From contig NZ_CP139960.1 of NCBI RefSeq assembly GCF_034424215.1, forward strand, positions 3,906,001-3,970,000: a DNA stretch of 64,000 nucleotides, in the 5' to 3' direction. Positions 285-9,604 of the stretch are shown piece by piece (position 1 is the first letter of the stretch; each line of letters begins with the position of its first letter). The notes beneath the pieces were generated by a model. That model saw only the letters and a list, made by a program, of their open reading frames with translations, had not been told where the DNA came from and made no database searches. The DNA is from Niabella yanshanensis (GTDB lineage Bacteria; Bacteroidota; Bacteroidia; Chitinophagales; Chitinophagaceae). A program made the position numbers and the translations under genes.

Positions 285-2162
285 GTGAAAAAAGTAATTC
301 TATCGATGTTGGCATTTGCATCAGCCACATCATTAAAGGCGCAACAAGAGGTGATGAATCAGGATCTGGAGAAGGTAACAGTAACAGCAACGAGATTTCC
401 CAAAAAGCTGAGCGAAACAGGTAAGGTGGTGAATGTTATCAGCAGGGCTGATCTTGATAAGGCAGGAGGCAAAGACCTGTCCCAGCTATTGAACGAAAAG
501 GCAGGGGTGATTATTAATGGCGCTAATACTAATCCGGGAAAAGATAAAAGTGTTTTTTTACGGGGAGCAGCTAATGCCTATACTGTTATTCTTATCAACG
601 GTGTTCCGGTAAACGATCCTACTGGTGTAGGTGGCGCGTTTGACCTGCGAGTGCTGCCGGTTGAGTCAATAGAACGGGTGGAGATTTTAAAAGGAGCACA
701 GAGCACTTTATACGGCACCGATGCAATAGCAGGGGTCATCAATATAATTACCAGGAAGGGGGAAGGAAAAGCCGCGAACTTGTACGGTGGAATTAGTTAT
801 GGAAGGTATAATACGCTCAAAGCGAATGCCGGATTAAACGGTAGCTTTAATGAATCTTCCTATAACATCTCTTTTATGCATGATGAAACCGGAGGTATTG
901 CCGAAGCGAAAGATAAAATAGGCACACAAAGTTTTCCCCGTAATGGCATGTTGAGAAATTCCTTGAGTATTGATATAGATGGTGCGGTTACCAGTAACTT
1001 TCATGTTAAGCCATTTTTCAGGTATGCATACTTTAAAAGCAGCTTTGCCAATGATGCTTTTATCGGCGGAGGCAATCGTTTTGCGAGCGAGTTGCTTTCT
1101 GCGGGAACCCAGGCTCAGTATAGTTTCGACAAGGGATCGGTAACCGGTATTTTTTCTTTTGATAATGTAAAACGTGCCTATCCCGATGGATTTGTAAAAG
1201 CTTTTGAAGGAAATAAAAAAACAGCTGAGCTTTTTAACAGGGTGGATTGGCACCGGCATTTTCAAACCTTGTTAGGATTACGGTACGATGATATTACGAT
1301 GAAAAATCCTAATGCAACCAGCCTCGACACCAGTATACAAATGATCAGTCCTTATCTCTCTTTATTTCTGAAAGACTGGAACGGTTTTAACCTTGAACTG
1401 GGCGGACGCCTTAATAACCATTCTAAATTTGGTAACACATTTACTTATTCCGTCAACCCATCCTACCTGGTTAATGATCAGTTTAAGGTTTTTGTAAATT
1501 ACGGAACTGCATTCAGGGCACCGGCTTTGTCAGAATTGTATGGATCGTTTGGTGCAAATCCGCTGCTGAAACCTGAGGAGTCCAGAACACTTGAAGGGGG
1601 GATACAGTATATAGGCGTTGACGAAAAATGGAACATAAGAGTAGTTGCATTTAACCGTAATACAAAAAATATTATTGCCTATCAAAATCGACAATACACT
1701 AATTATAACAGGCAAAAGGACCATGGTATTGAAATTGAACCTACCATTAATATTAATGATGATATCCAGTTAAAATTATTCTACACTTTTGTTGAAGGTA
1801 AGGTAACAACAGCAGCGGTAAACGGCGATACCACTTATAATAACTTATTTAAGCGCCCCAAACACACATTGGGATTGAGCCTGGGTTATCAGGTAACACC
1901 AGCGCTATTTGTGAGCACAAACTTCCAGAATTTTGGTAAAAGAGCCGATCTTTATTTTGAATCTATTCCACCTTATGGACAGCAAACCGTGCCGCTTGCC
2001 TCCTACAGCCTTTGGGATATCTACAGTGAGTATTCTTTCCTGAAGTCGAGATTAAGGGTATTTGCGCAGGTAAGCAACCTGCTGGATGCGGATTACTATG
2101 AGGTGTATGGGTACAGTGTTTTAGGCAGATCGTTAAATGCGGGAATAAGGTTCAGACTGTAA
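285..2162 (+). CDS. btuB: TonB-dependent cobalamin receptor, BtuB-like
   Basis: Outer-membrane TonB-dependent receptor of 625 residues, the likely vitamin B12 importer. The protein starts with a signal peptide ending around LKAQ (residue 20). A TonB-box-like segment (EKVTVTATR, about residues 29-37) follows, then the plug domain with RVEILKGAQSTLYGTDAIAGVINI (read in two parts: RVEILKGAQSTLYG and TDAIAGVINI). The C-terminal barrel ends in an aromatic or hydrophobic strand (NAGIRFRL). The cobalamin riboswitch directly upstream supports a B12 role over other substrates. The start is a GTG at 285, which gives a proper signal peptide; no ATG fits as well. It would depend on the ExbB/ExbD/TonB proteins encoded at 8-11 kb. 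Length is close to the family norm. Substrate assignment rests on the riboswitch. Confidence 0.9.
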   Translation: MKKVILSMLAFASATSLKAQQEVMNQDLEKVTVTATRFPKKLSETGKVVNVISRADLDKAGGKDLSQLLNEKAGVIINGANTNPGKDKSVFLRGAANAYTVILINGVPVNDPTGVGGAFDLRVLPVESIERVEILKGAQSTLYGTDAIAGVINIITRKGEGKAANLYGGISYGRYNTLKANAGLNGSFNESSYNISFMHDETGGIAEAKDKIGTQSFPRNGMLRNSLSIDIDGAVTSNFHVKPFFRYAYFKSSFANDAFIGGGNRFASELLSAGTQAQYSFDKGSVTGIFSFDNVKRAYPDGFVKAFEGNKKTAELFNRVDWHRHFQTLLGLRYDDITMKNPNATSLDTSIQMISPYLSLFLKDWNGFNLELGGRLNNHSKFGNTFTYSVNPSYLVNDQFKVFVNYGTAFRAPALSELYGSFGANPLLKPEESRTLEGGIQYIGVDEKWNIRVVAFNRNTKNIIAYQNRQYTNYNRQKDHGIEIEPTININDDIQLKLFYTFVEGKVTTAAVNGDTTYNNLFKRPKHTLGLSLGYQVTPALFVSTNFQNFGKRADLYFESIPPYGQQTVPLASYSLWDIYSEYSFLKSRLRVFAQVSNLLDADYYEVYGYSVLGRSLNAGIRFRL

Positions 2163-2265
2163 TTGAGGAGTTGACAGGAGGAGCTCCTTTAACTATCCGA
2201 ATACCGGGAACAATGGTTTATATTCGTATGGCATTTGCTATTGGTAACCAAACAAACCGGCTGAT

Positions 2266-2847
2266 ATGAATTTTAGCTATAAAGAAATTCTTACTGTTGC
2301 ATTCACCCTTTTTGCGATTATAGACATCATTGGTTCTGTGCCGATACTGATTTCTATAAAAAATAAAGCCGGGGGCATCCGGGAATTTCGGGTTACCATT
2401 ATTGCAGGGGCTCTGATGCTTTTGTTTTTATTTTTGGGCGGGCCGATACTGAACATATTAGGACTTGATGTAAAATCCTTCGCGGTGGCCGGTTCTATTG
2501 TGATCTTTATACTGGGATTGGAAATGGTTTTGGGTATAGAATTTTTTAAATCAGATGGCGATGTAAAAGCTTCAACGGTAGTGCCACTGGCATTCCCTTT
2601 AATTGCCGGTTCCGGAACCCTAACAACTATTATGTCATTAAAAGCCAACTATGGTGTGTATACTATTCTTATTGCAATTGTACTGAACCTCATTGTTATT
2701 TACACGGTTTTAAAATCCTTAAGTGGCATATCAAAACTACTGGGACCCAGCGGGCTGATCGCCATCAGGAAGTTTTTCGGCGTGATTCTCTTAGCGATCT
2801 CGGTGAAAATTTTCGCGGCAAACGCAGCGGGATTACTTAATCACTAA
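2266..2847 (+). CDS. MarC family integral membrane protein
   Basis: A 193-residue protein made almost entirely of hydrophobic segments, about six transmembrane helices. Family features are the N-terminal FTLFAIIDIIGSVPI stretch and the central PLAFPLIAGSGTLTTIM segment (about residues 106-122), both typical of MarC (UPF0056). The family sits in the inner membrane. Its early link to antibiotic resistance was not confirmed and its substrate is unknown. It lies 103 bp after btuB on the same strand and ends at a strong bidirectional hairpin, so it could be the last gene of that transcript or have its own promoter. Confidence 0.88.
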   Translation: MNFSYKEILTVAFTLFAIIDIIGSVPILISIKNKAGGIREFRVTIIAGALMLLFLFLGGPILNILGLDVKSFAVAGSIVIFILGLEMVLGIEFFKSDGDVKASTVVPLAFPLIAGSGTLTTIMSLKANYGVYTILIAIVLNLIVIYTVLKSLSGISKLLGPSGLIAIRKFFGVILLAISVKIFAANAAGLLNH

Positions 2848-2864
2848 AAGTATAATGCTAAAGC

Positions 2865-2891
2865 AAAAGCTACCGGAATTCGGTAGCTTTT
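2865..2891. terminator. Bidirectional intrinsic terminator
   Basis: A perfect 11-bp inverted repeat, AAAAGCTACCG / CGGTAGCTTTT, with a 5-nt loop. A-rich and T-rich ends make it usable from both strands. It separates the convergent MarC-family gene and DUF6496 gene. Confidence 0.85.
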
Positions 2892-2910
2892 GTGTTTATA
2901 TGGAGTCGGA

Positions 2911-3714
2911 TTATTTCCTGTTATCCCAAAGCGGTTTTTTACCCGAAGGCTTTTGGGAGGTTTTCGCTTTAGAAGGATTTATATTACCGTGATAGGGATC
3001 TTGTGCCGATGCCTTGAAATCTTCCGGCATGTATTGCTGGTTGGGTACTGTGGCTGAAAAGACCGCCTGATCACTCTCGGTTTCCGGTGTAACAATATTA
3101 TTAACATCTGCATTGGTTACAGGATCATTTACATTATCTGTTGTTGGAGTGCTGATGAATTCTCCTGTATCTGAAGTTTCGCCCGGCATTTTTGCCTTCG
3201 CCTTCGAAGGCTTTTCCTTAGCCTTGCTTTTTGATACTGCTTTGGGTGTTGTGGATTTTGCACCGGATTTTTTAGGCGCTGCTTTTTTAGCAGGCGATTT
3301 CGACGGTGCGCTCTTTTTGCCACCGGTCTTCTTCGCAGCCGTACGAGCAGATTTTTTAGGCGCTGCTTTTTTCTTTACAGCTGCCTTCTTTGTTGCTGCT
3401 TTCTTCAAAGGAGTCCCCTTGGACTTTTTTGCCGCAGTTTTTTTTGCCGCGACCTTCTTTTTAGGCGGGCTTTTCTTTTTCGCTGCTCCCCCGCCTGCTG
3501 GACGGGCAGGCTTTTTAGGAGCAGCCTTCTTCGCTGCGGTTTTTTTAGCAGGTACTTTGGCGCCTTTTTCACGGGCTTCTGAAAGGCCGATGGCTATTGC
3601 CTGTTTTTTACTGGTTACTTTTTTATCCGATTTGCCGGATGTGAGCGTGCCTTTTTTCATTCTTTTTACTGCACTTTTAACAGATTTGCCGGCAGCTTTT
3701 GAATATTTAGCCAT
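2911..3714 (-). CDS. DUF6496 / histone H1-like Lys-Ala-rich protein
   Basis: A 267-residue basic protein. The N-terminal 55 residues (MAKYSKAAGKSVKSAVKRMK, then GTLTSGKSDKKVTSKKQAIA and IGLSEAREKGAKVP) match the DUF6496 module found in many Bacteroidota and Proteobacteria. About 150 residues of KKAAPKK/AAKK-type repeats follow, like the tail of histone H1, and then an acidic, low-complexity C-terminus. This composition suggests DNA or RNA binding, but no function is established. The ATG at 3714 is chosen because the conserved module starts there; an in-frame extension upstream looks non-coding. A GC-rich palindromic element (3490-3510) is read in frame as PARPAGG within the Lys/Ala tail. It ends against the shared terminator with the MarC gene. 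Confidence 0.82.
   Translation of the reverse strand: MAKYSKAAGKSVKSAVKRMKKGTLTSGKSDKKVTSKKQAIAIGLSEAREKGAKVPAKKTAAKKAAPKKPARPAGGGAAKKKSPPKKKVAAKKTAAKKSKGTPLKKAATKKAAVKKKAAPKKSARTAAKKTGGKKSAPSKSPAKKAAPKKSGAKSTTPKAVSKSKAKEKPSKAKAKMPGETSDTGEFISTPTTDNVNDPVTNADVNNIVTPETESDQAVFSATVPNQQYMPEDFKASAQDPYHGNINPSKAKTSQKPSGKKPLWDNRK
3490..3510 (-). repeat. GC-rich palindromic element, type 1, inside the DUF6496 gene
   Basis: On the minus strand the 21-bp element begins CCTGCCCG and ends CAGGCGGG. It lies in frame within the Lys/Ala-rich coding region and adds a Pro/Gly-rich stretch that breaks the local repeat. The same termini occur at 4339-4412, 6991-7035 and 24784-24800. Confidence 0.65.
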
Positions 3715-3869
3715 AATGTTGGAATTTAATGCGAGGTTAGAAAATGAATGAGAAGTATTCGTAAATAAGAAGAATTTCAAAAAGTGTACCACTAATATAG
3801 AGGTAGCTTTCATAAAATTGCGCAGGAGTAACCTTTTTCCTTTAATTTTGCGCGCTGCCAGATATAGCC

Positions 3870-3938
3870 GGCCCCGTAGTACAATGCCCGCCCGGCTGAA
3901 CGCCGTTCGGACGGGGATAGTATAAGATCGGTCCGAAA
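3870..3938 (+). pseudogene. Partial 5' copy of tRNA-Arg with a palindromic insert
   Basis: Bases 3870-3886 match the first 17 bases of the intact tRNA-Arg at 3987 with one mismatch. A GC-rich insert of 29 bases (3887-3915) then interrupts the D-loop. The tRNA sequence resumes at GATAGTATAAGA (3916-3927) and diverges in the anticodon arm, although TCCGAA is still visible. No T-arm or acceptor 3' strand follows, so this is a tRNA fragment and not a functional gene. Confidence 0.75.
3887..3915 (+). repeat. GC-rich palindromic element, type 2
   Basis: This insert in the partial tRNA copy contains CCGGCTGAACGCCGTTCGG. A near-identical unit is at 7059-7088, with two changes in the core. The ends CCCGCCCGG and TTCGGACGGG are partly complementary. 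Confidence 0.65.
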
Positions 3939-3986
3939 TATGTTTGGAATAGGAACAACCCAAGGGGTATTAGTTCTTAAAATAAT

Positions 3987-4058
3987 GGCCTCGTAGTACA
4001 ATGGATAGTATAAGAGTTTCCGAAGCTCCAGATCCCAGTTCGATTCTGGGCGAGGCCA
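3987..4058 (+). tRNA. tRNA-Arg (anticodon CCG)
   Basis: A 72-nt cloverleaf. The acceptor stem GGCCTCG pairs with CGAGGCC. The D-arm is GTAC/GTAT, and the anticodon loop is TTCCGAA with anticodon CCG. The T-arm is CCCAG-TTCGATT-CTGGG. The discriminator is A, followed by an encoded CCA (ending at 4061). The anticodon stem has one A-C mismatch at its outer pair and a T-G wobble next to the loop. This is the only complete copy of the three related segments at the locus. Confidence 0.93.
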
Positions 4059-4182
4059 CCAAAAAACACAGCCTGCGTTGTATTATGCCTATGTAATAAA
4101 AAGTGTAGCCTTTGATTATTACTGCAAGGGTCACTGTGCAGATCTTCAGATACGTCTTCGGGAGCATAACGCAGGTAAAACT
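4015..4182 (+). repeat. Duplicated unit, copy A (tRNA 3' half plus downstream flank)
   Basis: From the anticodon arm of tRNA-Arg to 124 bases past its end, this segment is repeated at 4312-4552. Inside the flank a hairpin, GTAATAA (4093-4099) with TTATTAC (4116-4122), is preserved in both copies, as is TCGGGAGCATAACGCAGG near 4158-4175. Confidence 0.85.
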
Positions 4183-4311
4183 TCTTCTATATTCCATTTA
4201 TCATAGTTTATTTTGAAGCATTTGAAACCCGGGCAGAAGCCGTGGCCCGTGAGAAGTATTTTAAAACAGGTGCGGGGAGACGTTATCTGAAAGATAAAAT
4301 AGAGGGCTTCT

Positions 4312-4552
4312 AGTTTCCGAAGCTCCAGATCCCAGTTCCCTGCCCGACTTAGCTTGGCAGGCTGCCGGACTATGTCATTCAGATGGGCTTGCCCGGCCGC
4401 ACAGCAGGCGGGGATTCTGGGCGAGGCCACCAAAAACACCACCAATTTTGTATGATGCCTAGGTAATAAAAAGTGTAGCTTTTGATTATTACTGCAAGGG
4501 TCACTGTGTAAATCTTCAGATACGTTTTCGGGAGCATAACGCAGGTAAAACT
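4312..4552 (+). pseudogene. Partial 3' copy of tRNA-Arg plus flank, split by a 74-bp insert
   Basis: The segment 4312-4338 repeats the anticodon arm, variable loop and T-stem 5' strand of the tRNA. A 74-bp GC-rich insert (4339-4412) then sits exactly in the T-loop, between TTC and GATTC. The T-stem and acceptor 3' strand resume at 4413 (GATTCTGGGCGAGGCC, then ACCA), and the duplicated downstream flank runs to 4552. Without the insert, copies A and B are 168 and 167 bases long. The 5' half of the tRNA is missing here. Confidence 0.85.
4339..4412 (+). repeat. GC-rich palindromic element, type 1, long form
   Basis: The insert begins CCTGCCCG and ends CAGGCGGG, the same termini as the 21-bp element at 3490-3510, but with a longer interior holding further self-complementary words (CTTGGCAGG, GCCGG, GCCCGG). 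It splits the T-loop of the duplicated tRNA fragment. Confidence 0.7.
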
Positions 4553-4694
4553 GTCTTTGGTCTTACTGTATTCTTTCTCAGTCGGTTTACATACTGTTGC
4601 GTTTGTAATTATTCACGCGTTTCAATAGATAGTAATCCTGATTTTTAAACCTCTGTTACGAAAAATGGATGCTCGTAACCTTAACAAATGCAAT

Positions 4695-5267
4695 ATGAAT
4701 CAAAAACTTTCTGTCCTGGCTTTGTCATTATCAGCGCTATGCGCCATCATTGTTATCTATTCCTGTAATAAAAGTAATGCTGCTGAAACGGGCAATTATC
4801 CTAAGGCGCTTGCGAATTATGGCGACTTCAAAGGGCTGGTAAGCCAGGTAGAGCAATACCGGCAACAAAGATTAGTAAGCCTCAATGATTTTTTAAAGAT
4901 GCAAAAAGAACCGAACACCGTTGTTTTGGATACCCGCTCGGCAAACCGTTATACAGCCAGGCACATGAAGGGCGCCATCTCCCTTCCTTTCACCGATTTT
5001 ACACAAACGAACCTGGCCCGGCTTATACCCGATGCTAATACGCGCATATTGATTTACTGTAATAATAATTTTATGGGCGACCAGGTGAACTTCGCCACCA
5101 AAACAGCAGCACCCTCTGCGGCTAATAACCATACACCGCTTACACTGGCTTTAAATATTCCTACCTATATTAACCTGTATGGTTATGGCTATAAGAATAT
5201 TTATGAATTGGATGAATTGGTAAATATGTCGGATAACCGGGTTCAGTTTGAGGGAACTGTAAACTAG
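4695..5267 (+). CDS. Rhodanese-like lipoprotein
   Basis: A 190-residue protein with an N-terminal signal sequence ending in a lipobox-like VIYSC, so it is probably an outer-membrane or periplasmic lipoprotein. The rhodanese domain follows: VVLDTRSANRYTARHMKGAI is the substrate-binding strand-helix part, and LIYCNNNFMGDQ carries the likely catalytic Cys. The loop after this Cys (CNNNFMGD) differs from the usual CxxGxR, so thiosulfate activity is uncertain. Single-domain rhodaneses move sulfane sulfur or act as redox scaffolds. The ATG at 4695 is chosen because it starts the signal peptide; an in-frame ATG 30 bases upstream only adds charged residues. It follows the tRNA repeat region and appears to be transcribed alone. 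Confidence 0.8.
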   Translation: MNQKLSVLALSLSALCAIIVIYSCNKSNAAETGNYPKALANYGDFKGLVSQVEQYRQQRLVSLNDFLKMQKEPNTVVLDTRSANRYTARHMKGAISLPFTDFTQTNLARLIPDANTRILIYCNNNFMGDQVNFATKTAAPSAANNHTPLTLALNIPTYINLYGYGYKNIYELDELVNMSDNRVQFEGTVN

Positions 5268-5390
5268 TATTCGCTTTTCAAATTGGCTGGCTCCCTGAAT
5301 TATTGGGAAAGAGCCCATTCCGGAAAGAGGCTCTGCCAGACTGCTTCGTTCCGGCGGGGAGGCCCTCGCTACCTGTTTTTGCGGAATCGG

Positions 5391-6677
5391 TCACGCTCTA
5401 CCGGGCATTTTCGGTATTTGGTTTTTTTGCGCACCGTATATACCGGTATGACCGCTAAAATAATAGGCAGTAAAGCAAGCAATGGCATAATATACAATAT
5501 TGTCTGCGCCGAATAATTCGGCTCCCATTATGGTGCAGGCAAGAGGTGTATTGGTTGCGCCGGCAAATACCGCAATAAAGCCTAATCCGGCCATTAAATC
5601 AACTGGTGCGCCTGTTATCATAGCGATAGTGTTTCCCAGGGCGGCGCCAATAAAAAACAGGGGCGTAACCTCGCCGCCTTTAAAGCCCATACCCAGGGTT
5701 ATCGTCGTAAATAAAATTTTCCATAACCAGCTAAAGGGTTTCGCGCCACCGTCTTTGAAACAGGTCACTATTGAAACAGCGCCGGGATCGGGATTGCTGA
5801 CGCTGAGGCTCAGGTAGTCAGGACTAATTAAAAAGCTTAACACGATAATGATCAGTCCGCCGGTTACCGGTATCAGCCATTTTACTTTTATCAGTTGATT
5901 GCTATATCTTTTTATAGCATGAGACAGCCTGACGAAAAGGTAGGCAGCAAGGCCAAAAGCGATACCGGCGCCAATTGCTTTTGCCATCAATAACAGGTTA
6001 AACCCAAACGAGCCCAAGCTAAGCAGGTGTTGACTTACGAAGCTAATTTGGTAGTTGGTGTGATGAATGCCCCAGGCGCTGCAAACAATATTGGATAATA
6101 TGCTGGCCATCAGGCAGGGCAGTAACGCATTATATTTCAGCTTACCCACAACCAGCACTTCTAATGCAAAAATAGCCCCGGCAACAGGTGTTCCAAATAC
6201 GGCTCCAAATCCACCGGCGATACCGGTCATTAATAATATACGCAGGTTTTCTTTGGAGAGGTGCATGTGTCTTCCTAAAAAATGAGAAAGGCTGCCTCCC
6301 ATCTGTACAGCGGTGCCTTCCCGCCCCGCGGACCCTCCAAAGAGGTGCGTAATAATAGTGGAAAATAGTACCAGCGGGGCCATTCTCAGCGGAACACCGG
6401 TATCGGGTTTATGTATTTCATCGATGATCAGGTTATTACCCGCTTCCGCGTTTTTTCCCGAATACCTGTAAAGAAAATGTATAACAATGCCGGCCAGTGG
6501 TAAAAAATAAAGTAACCAGTTATAATGGAACCTTATTTCAATGACCGTTTCGAGCAACCACAGGAACAGCGCTACGAGGGAGCCTGTTAACAGTGACACC
6601 GGTAAAACCCAAAGGGTCCATTTGACCAGGTAGATAATAACTAAAAAAGGATGAAAAGATGTGCGGAACTTTTGCAT
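5391..6677 (-). CDS. CLC-family anion transporter, probably the fluoride (CLC-F) type
   Basis: A 428-residue multi-helix membrane protein of the CLC family. Visible motifs are GGSAGREGTAVQMGGSL (about residues 114-130), which carries the gating Glu, GAVFGTPVAGAIFALEV, and GFKGGEVTPLFFIGAALGN near residues 335-350. GREGT in place of GKEGP and the GGEVTPLF signature are, as I recall, features of the CLC-F fluoride/proton antiporter clade; this is knowledge of the family, not a computed placement. No fluoride riboswitch could be recognised upstream. The product would export fluoride or chloride across the inner membrane. It is a single gene, divergent from nothing nearby, with a GC-rich repeat region behind its promoter side. 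Confidence 0.85.
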   Translation of the reverse strand: MQKFRTSFHPFLVIIYLVKWTLWVLPVSLLTGSLVALFLWLLETVIEIRFHYNWLLYFLPLAGIVIHFLYRYSGKNAEAGNNLIIDEIHKPDTGVPLRMAPLVLFSTIITHLFGGSAGREGTAVQMGGSLSHFLGRHMHLSKENLRILLMTGIAGGFGAVFGTPVAGAIFALEVLVVGKLKYNALLPCLMASILSNIVCSAWGIHHTNYQISFVSQHLLSLGSFGFNLLLMAKAIGAGIAFGLAAYLFVRLSHAIKRYSNQLIKVKWLIPVTGGLIIIVLSFLISPDYLSLSVSNPDPGAVSIVTCFKDGGAKPFSWLWKILFTTITLGMGFKGGEVTPLFFIGAALGNTIAMITGAPVDLMAGLGFIAVFAGATNTPLACTIMGAELFGADNIVYYAIACFTAYYFSGHTGIYGAQKNQIPKMPGRA

Positions 6678-6990
6678 GACCTACAATTTGAATTTCAGGA
6701 TACTAAAATACCATTCATTTGCAGGCGCCATTATTCCACCCATGAAGGTGAACGGTTCAAATAGGAAGACACCATTTCCTTAAATCTGTACCCAACAAAA
6801 ATAATGTTTTTATAATCCTGTCAACCCTTAGGACTTGAAAAAGATTCGATCAAATCATTATAAAAACGCACAATGTACGGGGTAATAAACCCTGAAAGGG
6901 TGACATAGATGCAGTATTTGCCTGGCCAAACAGCTTTAGGTTCGATTTAAGCCTCTGGGGTCGAAAAGTTTTTCACCGCTACATAGGATA

Positions 6991-7035
6991 CCTGCCCCGT
7001 CCGTGCCGGCACGGGCGGGCGTCCGGTCAGGCGGG
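6991..7035 (+). repeat. GC-rich palindromic element, type 1
   Basis: A 45-bp unit starting CCTGCCCCG and ending CAGGCGGG, with an internal palindrome CCGTGCCGGCACGG. The termini match the elements at 3490, 4339 and 24784. Confidence 0.65.
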
Positions 7036-7058
7036 CTTTGCGTATTCTCCGCGTACTC

Positions 7059-7088
7059 CGCCCGGATGAACGCCGGTCGGACGGGCGG
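7059..7088 (+). repeat. GC-rich palindromic element, type 2
   Basis: Contains CCGGATGAACGCCGGTCGG flanked by CGCC and ACGGGCGG. It is nearly identical to the insert at 3887-3915, here in intergenic DNA 24 bp after a type 1 element. Confidence 0.65.
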
Positions 7089-7184
7089 TAAAAAATATTA
7101 TAATGCGAAAAACTTTTTAACGCGCCCCATAAAAAATCCCTGACCAATAGTGGTACAGGGATGAAGAAAGTGATTGATGCGATT

Positions 7185-7682
7185 TTATTTCAATGCAGCC
7201 AGTGCCGCTTCGTAGTTGGGCTCCTGGGCGATTTCAGGTACCTGCTCTGTGTAAACGATCTGTCCTTCTTCATTGGCAACGACTACAGCACGGCTTAATA
7301 AGCCTTTCATGCCCGAATCTGCTATGGTAACACCGTAATCAGCTCCGAAGTTTCCGCGAAAATCCGACAGGTTTTCTACATTATTCAATCCTTCTGCAGC
7401 GCAAAAACGCTTCAATGCAAAAGGAAGGTCTTTGGATACATTGATTACCACCGTGTTCTCCAGGGCGCTGGCTTCTTCGTTGAATTTTCTTGCTGAAGCG
7501 GCACAAATACCGGTATCTATGCTCGGAAAAATATTCAGCACTATTTTCCTGCCTTTATAGTCGGACAGGCTTTTTTCGCTAAGGTCATCCTTAACCAGGG
7601 TAAAATCTTTCAACGGACTACCCACTTCAGGCAAAGTGCCCGTTGTATTTACTGCATTACCTTTTAATGTAATTGTCGACAT
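7185..7682 (-). CDS. tpx: Thiol peroxidase (Tpx), peroxiredoxin
   Basis: A 165-residue Tpx-type atypical 2-Cys peroxiredoxin that reduces hydrogen peroxide and alkyl hydroperoxides with electrons from thioredoxin. The peroxidatic Cys lies in DTGICAASARKFNEE (about residues 56-70). The resolving Cys is in LPFALKRFCAAEGL (about residues 85-98). The usual PVC before the catalytic site reads GIC here. The N-terminal MSTITLKGNAVNTTGTLPEVG is typical of the family when read as MSTITLKGN plus the GxLPxVG motif. Length equals the family norm. It is a single gene with a good -33/-7 promoter upstream. Confidence 0.94.
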   Translation of the reverse strand: MSTITLKGNAVNTTGTLPEVGSPLKDFTLVKDDLSEKSLSDYKGRKIVLNIFPSIDTGICAASARKFNEEASALENTVVINVSKDLPFALKRFCAAEGLNNVENLSDFRGNFGADYGVTIADSGMKGLLSRAVVVANEEGQIVYTEQVPEIAQEPNYEAALAALK

Positions 7683-7724
7683 GTTTGTTGTTTTTGATTA
7701 GTTGAGTATTGAATTTACTTCTAA

Positions 7725-7756
7725 CAAAAGTATTGTTAATTGCGGTTGTACTCCAA
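7725..7756 (-). promoter_or_regulatory. Promoter of tpx
   Basis: On the minus strand a TTG (-33 element, 7754-7756) and TACTTTTG (-7 box, 7725-7732) are separated by 21 bases. This fits the Bacteroidota primary-sigma consensus TTG-N19-21-TAnnTTTG and lies 43 bases before the tpx ATG. Confidence 0.65.
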
Positions 7757-7855
7757 AGGGAAAAAAACAAATTTGTATTGGTTATAAATTTCATATATTC
7801 ATGCCTTATTAACGAGGGCTGTATTACAGAAAGCAAGGTGTTTTTATAAATTTAA

Positions 7856-7872
7856 TGGTTATTTAATAACCA
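7856..7872. promoter_or_regulatory. 17-bp palindrome between tpx and exbB
   Basis: TGGTTATTTAATAACCA is a perfect inverted repeat (8-bp arms, 1-base centre) in the 335-bp AT-rich divergent region. It could be an operator for the exbB operon or for tpx. No regulator gene is near, and the rest of this gap shows no gene. Confidence 0.35.
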
Positions 7873-8017
7873 TCCGGAGGCGTTAAATAATCATTAAACA
7901 TGAGGTCTTAAATCAGAAAAAAATAACAAAGAAAAATTTTGTTATAAATTATTTTTTGTTAGAATTGTAATCTATTTCACAAGCTTTAATATTTAAAAAA
8001 CTAAAAAAACTAAGATC

Positions 8018-8875
8018 ATGGCTGAAAATCAAGCTAAGCCGGTAGCGGCAGCAACGACATCTGTGCAACCCAAAAAAAGCAGTAATGCAATTTCGTGGAT
8101 AGCACCTATCCTGTGTGTAGTGGCAGGTTATTCTATTTGGAGATTTATTATGGGTGATCCAGCGGGTTTTGATGTACCTGATGCAGCAGGCGGATTTTGG
8201 CCTCACCACAAAGGTCCTAAAGGAGCATTTAATGCCATTTATGAAGGTGGTATCATTGTACCTCTTCTGATAGGAATGTTATTGGTAGTGATTGTATTTG
8301 CGATTGAAAGATTCTTAACAATCAGCAAAGCGTTAGGTAAAGGAAACATCAGCAACTTTATCCGCAAAGTACAGTATCATCTGGCTAATAAAAATGTTGA
8401 CGCAGCTATCGCTGAGTGCGACAAACAAAGAGGTTCAGTTGGTAATGTAATGAAAGCTGGTCTTCGTCGTTACAAAGAAATGATCAACGAAACCGGTTTA
8501 GAAACCGAGCAAAAAGTAGTGGCTATCCAGAAAGAAGTTGAAGAAGCTACAGCGCTGGAGCTGCCTATGCTTCAGAAAAACCTGGTATTCCTTTCTACTA
8601 TCGTATCAGCTGGTACGCTTGTGGCGTTATTAGGTACGGTAATGGGTATGATCCGTTCTTTCGCAGCCTTAGGTTCTTCTGGAGGCGGTGGCGATTCTTC
8701 TGCTCTTGCGGTTGGTATCTCTGAGGCTCTGTATAATACAGCTATTGGTATCGGTACTTCAACACTGGCTTTGATTTTCTATAACATGTTAACAACAAGG
8801 ATCGATAGTATTACTTATGGTATCGACGAGTCTGGATTTACTTTAACTCAGTCTTTTGCTTCTTTGTACAAATAA
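8018..8875 (+). CDS. exbB: ExbB/TolQ-family proton channel subunit
   Basis: A 285-residue MotA/TolQ/ExbB protein. It forms the inner-membrane proton-conducting motor with ExbD and drives TonB. A membrane segment lies near residues 25-45. A second is near 76-98 (IIVPLLIGMLLVVIVFAIERFL), with paired helices in the C-terminal third around STIVSAGTLVALLGTVMGMI and ALYNTAIGIGTSTLALIFYN. The GTVxGMxxxF and AL-TxxGLxxA-like patterns are family marks. It is the first gene of a four-gene operon with two exbD genes and tonB. The extra N-terminal membrane segment is common in Bacteroidota homologues. Confidence 0.93.
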   Translation: MAENQAKPVAAATTSVQPKKSSNAISWIAPILCVVAGYSIWRFIMGDPAGFDVPDAAGGFWPHHKGPKGAFNAIYEGGIIVPLLIGMLLVVIVFAIERFLTISKALGKGNISNFIRKVQYHLANKNVDAAIAECDKQRGSVGNVMKAGLRRYKEMINETGLETEQKVVAIQKEVEEATALELPMLQKNLVFLSTIVSAGTLVALLGTVMGMIRSFAALGSSGGGGDSSALAVGISEALYNTAIGIGTSTLALIFYNMLTTRIDSITYGIDESGFTLTQSFASLYK

Positions 8876-8953
8876 TAAATTGTAACAAAGACGAAAGTTG
8901 ATTTTATGGAAATTCCGAATTAAATCGTCTCATATCAAAATAATAAATTCAAT

Positions 8954-9604
8954 ATGCCTAAAGTTAATATAGCCAAGAAGTCGACTGATACGGACATGAC
9001 GCCCTTCGTGGACATCGCGTTCCTTATCCTGTCGTTCTTTATCATGGCTACTAAGTTCAAACCGGCTGAGGCAGTTCCCATTCAGACCCCTAATTCGGTT
9101 TCATCTCAAAAATTGCCGGAAAATGATGCGGTGATGATCAGCATTGATAAAGATGATAAAGTATATTTCTCTATCATGGCGCAGAAAGATCCACAGCAGG
9201 CAAGAGATATCATTAAAGCTGCTGCACAGGCAAGAAATATTCCTGTAACCGATGCACAGGTAGCCGGTTATTTTCCAGGCGATATGATCGGTGTTCCTTT
9301 TAATAAATTAGGAGCGTTCCTCGCATTGCCGGCAGATCAGAAGAAAACTTACGTACAGGAAGGTATTCCGGTTAAAGATTCAGCAAATAATGAATTATAC
9401 TACTGGATCGCAGCTTCGCGTAGTATTTTTGCCGGTCAGCCTTTAAAGTATCTGATTAAGGGGGATAATGTATCTAAATATCCTGCTTTCAAAGCAATTA
9501 TAGATGCTTTAAAGAAGAACGACGAGCAGAAGTATAACCTGGTTACCATGCCTGAAGGTGCTCCTACCGGAACAGAATTGTGGGTAGAGCGCAACAGCAA
9601 ATAA
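8954..9604 (+). CDS. exbD: ExbD-family biopolymer transport protein (first copy)
   Basis: A 216-residue single-pass membrane protein. The N-terminal DTDMTPFVDIAFLILSFFIM holds the membrane segment with the conserved Asp needed for proton flow. The periplasmic domain is longer than in E. coli ExbD (about 140 residues). It contains a lineage-typical insert around residues 75-150 before the C-terminal fold. It lies 78 bp after exbB and 31 bp before a second exbD, an arrangement frequent in Bacteroidota TonB systems. It is expected to act with ExbB in the inner membrane. Confidence 0.9.
   Translation: MPKVNIAKKSTDTDMTPFVDIAFLILSFFIMATKFKPAEAVPIQTPNSVSSQKLPENDAVMISIDKDDKVYFSIMAQKDPQQARDIIKAAAQARNIPVTDAQVAGYFPGDMIGVPFNKLGAFLALPADQKKTYVQEGIPVKDSANNELYYWIAASRSIFAGQPLKYLIKGDNVSKYPAFKAIIDALKKNDEQKYNLVTMPEGAPTGTELWVERNSK

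Follow-up and report, generated by a model that had tools for sequence, protein, structure and literature searches.

Organization of the tRNA-Arg(CCG) locus

The window, a stretch of 64,000 nucleotides of Niabella yanshanensis DNA (NCBI RefSeq assembly GCF_034424215.1, contig NZ_CP139960.1, positions 3,906,001 to 3,970,000), contains an intact tRNA-Arg(CCG) gene followed by a broken gene for a GIY-YIG nuclease, and this pair stands between two interrupted pieces of a further tRNA-Arg copy. The features are as follows, in window coordinates.

3870..3927, + strand: displaced 5' half of the resident tRNA-Arg, nt 1-29, interrupted by an insert (self-alignment)
3887..3914, no strand: GC-rich imperfect palindrome of 28 bp in the D-loop of the displaced 5' half (same position in relatives)
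3928..3986, + strand: stretch from the displaced 5' half to the intact tRNA, containing AGTTCTTAAA
3987..4061, + strand: intact tRNA-Arg(CCG) (ARAGORN; Rfam, 58.6 bits)
4078..4313, + strand: GIY-YIG nuclease gene, copy 1, broken, start codon assumed (PF01541 pieces; profile of relatives)
4312..4432, + strand: displaced 3' half of the resident tRNA-Arg, nt 29-75, interrupted by an insert (self-alignment)
4339..4412, no strand: GC-rich palindromic insert of 74 bp, placed behind nt 55 in the T-loop of the displaced 3' half
4448..4552, + strand: second copy of the GIY-YIG nuclease gene, reduced to an N-terminal remnant that has an early stop (repeat; profile of relatives)

A tRNA search of the N. 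yanshanensis genome found a single gene with the CCG anticodon, at 3987-4061. As an earlier note on this sequence had proposed, the flanking pieces derive from the intact tRNA. Upstream, 3870-3886 corresponds to tRNA nt 1-17 (94%, one mismatch) and 3915-3927 to nt 17-29 (100%); downstream, 4312-4338 corresponds to nt 29-55 (27 nt, 100%) and 4413-4432 to nt 56-75 (20 nt, 100%). Since the two pieces meet at nt 29, together they make up one complete tRNA. The earlier note was also right that both inserts sit in tRNA loops and belong to two sequence types; the D-loop insert that it gave as 29 bp is present and measures 28 bp, or 29 bp if an ambiguous G is counted.

The sequence behind the intact tRNA recurs behind the displaced 3' half (4062-4182 and 4432-4552; 121 nt, 90% by self-alignment). 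This repeat had been described as 124 bp of duplicated flank. It is real, but it is the start of the GIY-YIG nuclease gene rather than plain flank, covering the N-terminal part of the reading frame, and the rest of the broken gene, which had been missed, also lies between the two copies. Copy 1 is disrupted by a frame shift at about 4183-4206, where about 11 bp are missing relative to Niabella hibiscisoli, and the displaced 3' half begins within its stop codon (4311-4313). In the genome search two pieces, 4081-4236 and 4173-4268, matched PF01541 with scores under the family cut-off, and a profile of relatives matched the window's nuclease with E values of 4.7e-17 and 3.7e-13. The short C-terminal nuclease piece gave no Pfam match when taken alone and was found by the family search of the genome.

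The displaced halves are 384 bp apart, and the interval consists of the tRNA and the nuclease gene. The repeats are not due to chance, as exact matches of 27 and 24 nt and a 121-nt match at 90% occur in order; nor is the layout, because two congeners show it at the corresponding locus and other tRNA genes have it too. Independent partial duplications of the tRNA with its flank, as first suggested, do not appear to describe the locus, since the two fragments are the complementary parts of a single tRNA and the supposed flank is a nuclease gene. The GIY-YIG gene is most likely the cause of the arrangement.

A group I intron was considered and rejected, as an Rfam search of 3500-5000 gave tRNA only, plus a sub-threshold match to PVT1_7 that was taken as chance. 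Within this interval the nuclease gene lies outside any intron, which fits a free-standing homing endonuclease gene.

The locus might also be the scar of an integrase-driven element, such as a phage or an ICE, with the tRNA as its attachment site. Such elements often use tRNA genes for attachment and typically leave a displaced 3' tRNA end. However, no integrase was found in the eight neighbouring genes scanned (285-9604), the short interval between the halves holds a tRNA and a nuclease gene, and both halves are displaced. Over the loci described below the nuclease is the common partner, though these loci were chosen by their nuclease. We therefore regard an integrase scar as very improbable. 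The remnant of a tRNA-integrating element that the earlier note offered as an option came close, its reader not having seen the GIY-YIG gene.

The locus in congeners

When the tRNA-Arg(CCG) locus was compared in 14 congeners, two were found to carry the nuclease besides the window genome, a presence/absence polymorphism at one homologous site between species rather than strains. At the same locus N. hibiscisoli (G012) has three nuclease frames, two of them open and one truncated, with inserts of 28 and 91 bp at the same T-loop position. A Niabella MAG (G001) has one nuclease copy with a T-loop insert behind it, and its tRNA is cut by the contig end. The element-free congener G003 has a plain tRNA, preceded by MarC and a lysine-rich DUF6496 gene and followed by CLC; the window's rhodanese gene is missing from this locus. 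The intact tRNA of the window is identical to the G003 tRNA over 73 nt. In another Niabella congener (G006, locus L036, ~1398-1661), both displaced halves, with palindromes and split near nt 30, were seen around an intact tRNA-Arg, and no nuclease was found at the locus.

The leader was aligned for the window, G003 and N. hibiscisoli. In the window, a match to the promoter-side leader of G003, TTTTGCGCGCTGCC, lies 10 nt upstream of the displaced 5' half, and because of this match the half is read as probably sitting at its native place. The last 20 nt 5' of the G003 tRNA aligned only loosely and were placed by MAFFT before the intact tRNA. The counterpart of 3928-3986 is mostly missing in G003. 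Inspection by eye revealed an AGTTCTT-like motif at 3972-3986, shortly 5' of the intact tRNA; a similar motif precedes the tRNA in L066, L097, L142 and L147 and tRNA-Gly in L297, and we take it to be, perhaps, a boxA-like leader.

Related loci in the same genome

A PF01541 search of the N. yanshanensis genome yielded nine matches, two of which were the window pieces. In four of the other seven the open frame is short (93 to 154 aa), and in three it is long (465 to 621 aa). All but one of the short frames lie directly 3' of a same-strand tRNA, namely Asp(GTC), Phe(GAA) and Ser(GGA); the exception (L007) has no tRNA within its 3.2 kb. Behind each of these three nucleases comes a displaced 3' piece of its tRNA, with a palindrome in the anticodon/variable region for Asp, in the T-loop for Phe and in the variable arm for Ser, and the Ser locus has an additional 5' piece upstream. 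The check for similar split copies at other tRNA genes of the genome, which the earlier note had proposed, was positive at these three. Arg(CCG), Asp(GTC), Phe(GAA) and Ser(GGA) occurred once each among 43 tRNA-family matches, in a search that scored 150 of 315 first candidates, so that a weak further copy is possible.

Palindrome-bearing 5' pieces were also observed upstream of three tRNA-Leu genes that have no nuclease: at ~545-880 in L295 (G000:C1:4604900-4607200), before 743 in L296, and before tRNA-Leu(TAA) in L297 (- strand). One of these three loci has four tandem 5' pieces ~82 bp apart. A TCCCGA-TCGGGA pattern had 16 forward matches in the genome versus 8 in the control, and 6 of the 16 lay just 5' of the three tRNA-Leu genes. 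Degenerate tRNA-like pieces, one of them above the Rfam cut-off and with no ARAGORN call, were noted at ~4590495-4590614 (L304, G000:C1:4589500-4591700).

Nuclease loci across Bacteroidota

Matches to the nuclease were detected in 80 of 117 genomes of the taxonomic family and in 192 of 296 sampled Bacteroidota genomes, with tRNA adjacency checked for a subset of the top matches. Of the 95 loci in the first set, 84 had a tRNA on the same strand no more than 300 bp away, which preceded the nuclease in 72 and followed it in 12; 28 of 30 loci in the phylum-search set also had one. From the ranked family matches, the first set took 29 of the 30 at the top, with this genome's Phe locus not counted twice, and 60 hand-picked from the upper list, usually one per array; the phylum set was the best 30 matches. 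A further set was found only by similarity to the Arg clade (80 of 149 loci kept). These named loci come from several orders, and 71 of the 80 are at tRNA-Arg(CCG/CCT), one at Gln and eight at none (four at a contig edge).

In the pooled sets, a same-strand tRNA lay within 300 bp at 185 of 205 loci and an antisense one at none. Nine of the 20 loci without a tRNA are near a contig end; 13 of the 20 hold tRNA pieces and seven none. Removal of 11 duplicates left 194 distinct loci, 176 with a tRNA (141 before the nuclease, 35 after it) and 18 without. Because loci were taken from the top of ranked lists, these adjacency rates hold for good matches and not for a random sample. Evenly spaced arrays of five nuclease genes with equal scores were observed at G376:C1:120132-122171 (450 bp apart) and G431:C1:2945594-2947090 (315 bp apart). 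A single Arg-clade query matched four Listeria phage records at 38% identity, and a single query with an Arg(TCT)-locus protein gave no match in plasmids.

Displaced tRNA copies accompany the nuclease

A displaced copy of the tRNA (score 36 or more) was present in 169 of the 185 nuclease loci with a tRNA and absent from 16. By comparison, it was found at 0 of 34 of the genome's own tRNAs away from a nuclease and at 1 of 21 tRNA-Arg loci of relatives without a nuclease; the score cut-off misses weak 5' pieces at the three Leu genes and in G002, and these control counts are therefore minima. Exactly one ARAGORN-called tRNA of the given anticodon lay near the nuclease in 176 of 185 loci.

Where the tRNA precedes the nuclease (141 distinct loci), 56 loci had an upstream piece, which began at or before nt 3 in 51 cases and reached nt 70 in 4. 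A downstream piece was present in 113 and reached nt 70 in 104 of them; 30 of the 113 began at or before nt 3 and so are nearly whole copies rather than half a tRNA. Where the tRNA stands behind the nuclease, a displaced copy preceded the nuclease in 30 of 35 loci, beginning at or before nt 3 in 29 of the 30. Displaced pieces of this kind are what insertion into a tRNA would leave, although at many loci they overlap or a single one was found.

These counts bear on tandem amplification as another origin of the layout. By that account, the nuclease would cut the tRNA, recombination of the ends would multiply tRNA-nuclease units, and the extra tRNAs would decay (compare SegB of phage T6). It would fit the evenly spaced arrays, in which copies are up to 100% identical, the overlap of the nuclease stop codon with the next tRNA copy in the window and at several Arg loci, and the nearly whole downstream copies. 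End homology of the same kind, a microhomology of the tRNA 5' end with the nuclease 3' end, is reported for SegB (PMC13096335). However, with one called tRNA of the anticodon at nearly all loci, dosage is not raised; 52 of 56 upstream pieces lack the 3' end, 83 of 113 downstream pieces lack the first bases, and the window's two pieces sum to one tRNA. Tandem amplification thus appears unlikely.

A small GIY-YIG nuclease matched to its tRNA

The nuclease is ~80 aa long, and GIY-YIG is its only recognised domain, bar a weak T5orf172 match in one of three relatives. PF01541 matched three intact relatives with E values of 3e-13, 7e-16 and 1e-12, and an AlphaFold2 model of an Arg-clade protein had a pLDDT of 96.2 and a pTM of 0.83. 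The best solved relative was UPF0213 protein BH0048 (sequence E 8e-16; Foldseek E 3e-4, the sole one below 0.001), followed by SLX1 (sequence E 5e-9; Foldseek E 0.009 and up, TM by query ~0.7) and then I-TevI. By domain match and fold, the intact relatives belong to the GIY-YIG superfamily. Residues Y5, Y16, G18, R26 and E62 were invariant in 14 diverse rows; in 39 rows Y5, Y16, G18 and E62 remained invariant and R26 was conserved in at least 90%. We take this Tyr, Tyr-x-Gly, Arg and Glu to be the catalytic positions of GIY-YIG nucleases. The dN/dS ratio was below 0.5 in all 55 usable pairs out of 202 close ones (median 0.17), and ranged from 0.07 to 0.42 in 16 independent pairs, for 212 genes kept after exclusion of those with stops. 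The nuclease is real and under purifying selection.

In a tree of 89 nucleases, tRNA isotype required 19 changes over the 79 labelled rows (minimum, 10), as compared with a mean of 55.2 when isotypes were shuffled, and none of 200 shuffles was as low. Host genus (49 genera) required 81 changes versus a shuffled mean of 79.6, so nuclease clades are not clustered by genus. Ala and Glu were the only single-change isotypes; Leu took five changes, and Phe, with two rows, was unclustered. The tree has few columns and is poorly resolved, with 38 of 86 inner branches open; six loci were dropped for stop codons or shortness, ten unlabelled rows stayed outside the isotype count, and L019 received its label (Arg) by hand, as did L073 and L074 (both Lys). 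Apart from nine loci common to the first set, the finding of 71 of 80 Arg-clade loci at tRNA-Arg is an independent check of specificity. Thus, nuclease clades track tRNA identity and not host genus, and site specificity follows the nuclease.

Palindromic inserts in the displaced copies

Palindromic inserts were counted within 9-130 nt, and their junctions are ambiguous where a palindrome replaces a whole arm; the 184 inserts so obtained had a GC content of 67% and a median length of 28. In distinct loci, the junctions of 145 of 171 inserts touched a tRNA loop, as against 46% expected, and 49 of 62 did so when Arg(CCG/CCT) was left out. In Arg copies 57 of 109 inserts lay exactly at nt 16 and 21 of 109 at nt 55, and inserts at nt 16 or nt 55 were found in Chitinophagaceae, Cyclobacteriaceae, Sphingobacteriaceae and Bacteroidales. 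D-loop inserts were mostly of the type GCCCGCCCGG...CGGACGG, and T-loop inserts of the types CCTGCCCGA...TCAGGCGGG or CCCGCCCGTACC...GGTACGTTCGGGCGGG. Some palindromic inserts were nested. In L048 and L050 (= L192, L224), displaced copies of tRNA-Arg had all three of the D, anticodon and T loops occupied by palindromes.

When folded, 82 of 184 inserts were better than 95 of 100 of their own shuffles, while over half were not. In D-loop inserts (25 of 32 distinct inserts) the hairpin is kept and covariation is weak (term -0.03). A look-alike of the D-loop insert, with 2 mismatches in 25, lies at window 7061-7085, and a cluster of GC-rich palindromes was noted at window 6996-7086, between two genes and away from any tRNA. 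A BLAST search of the same genome for the 74-bp T-loop insert as a dispersed repeat returned no second copy. A loose palindrome pattern gave 124 forward matches in the genome versus 79 for the reversed control, and several of these matches were near-identical.

These observations raise the possibility that the palindromes are themselves active, REP-like mobile elements that insert in tRNA hairpin loops, with the nuclease an independent passenger. The excess of junctions at loops, the related palindromes elsewhere in the genome, the nested ones and the three tRNA-Leu loci that have palindrome-bearing 5' pieces and no nuclease all agree with it. It leaves unexplained the complementary halves and the match of nuclease to isotype, and displaced copies occurred at 169 of 185 nuclease loci versus 1 of 55 controls; moreover, fewer than half of the inserts fold better than 95 of 100 of their shuffles. 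We judge it distinctly unlikely.

A host-serving system is more improbable still. Here the nuclease and the palindrome-bearing tRNA-like RNAs would work for the cell, for example as decoys for toxins that cut tRNAs, or by signalling the processing of the nuclease mRNA. Such a role would be in line with the purifying selection seen for the nuclease, the kept hairpin of the D-loop inserts and the placement of displaced copies on the same strand as the tRNA. Against it, presence is patchy (2 of 14 congeners), many displaced copies are partial tRNAs unable to fold whole, and covariation in the inserts is weak.

Proposed model and its implications

We propose, with a probability of roughly 0.7, that a decayed mobile element of the homing-endonuclease type lies in the window, and that it targeted one tRNA gene and carried a replacement tRNA. 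The split tRNA, the association of the nuclease with tRNA genes, its specificity, its patchy presence, the displaced copies found with it, the selection upon it and the single-gene tRNAs all argue for this reading. The element would consist of a short leader, a complete replacement tRNA and a free-standing GIY-YIG nuclease gene of ~80 aa, and would have inserted into the resident tRNA-Arg(CCG) at about nt 28/29, so that the 5' half came to lie upstream of it and the 3' half downstream. The tRNA that it brought would now be the sole intact gene. The nuclease presumably cuts the same tRNA gene in an element-free genome; repair of the break from the element-carrying copy would bring in leader, tRNA and nuclease, and the carried tRNA would keep the cell alive as a rescue. 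Repeated rounds would stack 5' halves on the left and units of nuclease and 3' half on the right, giving arrays.

The loop palindromes of the displaced halves may represent a later or an accompanying step. They may persist because they break up homology and spoil recombinants, so that loss of the element would mean loss of the sole tRNA; alternatively, they may mark hairpin loops opened by a structure-specific, SLX1-like nuclease. We prefer persistence by blocked recombination, although the two accounts are not separable.

Several findings weigh against the homing-element reading. Both nuclease copies of the window are broken, and the catalytic domain is the only one recognised. The carried tRNA is identical to the plain G003 tRNA, so its sparing must depend on flanks, regulation or repair. 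In the survey, 18 of 194 distinct loci had no tRNA within 300 bp, an upstream piece was found in 56 of 141, 30 of 113 downstream copies were nearly whole, 35 loci had the nuclease first, 16 of 185 had no displaced copy, and the nuclease tree, on which only Ala and Glu take a single change, is poorly resolved.

A broader version of the model would see phylum-wide cut-and-rescue elements, in which each nuclease destroys one essential tRNA gene and supplies the sole working copy, with palindromes making clean loss lethal. We put this forward tentatively, at somewhat less than even odds; the tRNA gene was single in the four cases checked in this genome (Arg, Asp, Phe, Ser).

If the model is right, these would be among the smallest homing elements, spread through a whole phylum by holding tRNA genes, and a natural drive that carries its own rescue. 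They would offer many nuclease-target pairs with enzymes of ~80 residues, whose specificity is open to study from sequence, and they might account for tRNA pseudogenes and small GIY-YIG genes in Bacteroidota. Three questions would become testable: how a tiny nuclease selects a single tRNA gene, how the tRNA that it carries escapes, and what places palindromes at fixed positions in tRNA loops.

Comparison with known systems

A family of tRNA-dedicated homing elements with rescue tRNAs, of which the window would be a decayed member, appears to be undescribed. No account of such bacterial elements was found in the open-licence literature among the matches listed, as judged from titles and the starts of abstracts. 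In a 2006 survey of the GIY-YIG superfamily, a term search found "tRNA" three times, twice in references and once for a methyltransferase fusion, and Bacteroidetes never (PMC1564403). Group I introns with endonucleases occur in bacterial tRNA genes, according to the portion consulted of one report (PMC3984707). The target is alike, but here the intact tRNA is uninterrupted and Rfam finds tRNA only.

Small GIY-YIG proteins of the UPF0213 and SLX1 types (1ZG2, 7CQ2) are the best relatives of the nuclease in sequence and fold, and to our knowledge they have no role as a tRNA-gene element. In fungal mitochondria, mobile endonuclease genes such as that of Allomyces atp6 bring a replacement 3' end of their target gene. 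The likeness lies in a displaced old gene end 3' of the nuclease gene and a functional hybrid or replacement gene upstream; the target there is a mitochondrial protein gene, whereas here it is tRNA genes, with both halves displaced in the window.

Judged from the sections of its report available to us, SegB of phage T6 is the nearest described case. SegB is a free-standing GIY-YIG homing endonuclease with cleavage peaks within tRNA genes; it drives the formation of tandem tRNA-segB units, and segB is often near tRNAs in phages (PMC13096335). In the same sections, it shows no preference for particular tRNA isotypes, and amplification raises tRNA dosage (PMC13096335). Both systems thus have a GIY-YIG nuclease adjoining tRNA genes and tandem tRNA-nuclease units. 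SegB is larger than the nucleases described here. As far as those sections go, the one is phage-borne and the other chromosomal, with a nuclease of ~80 aa; the lack of isotype preference in SegB contrasts with nuclease clades matched to kinds of tRNA; and, in place of a raised tRNA dosage, the loci described here usually keep one intact tRNA together with palindrome-bearing displaced pieces.
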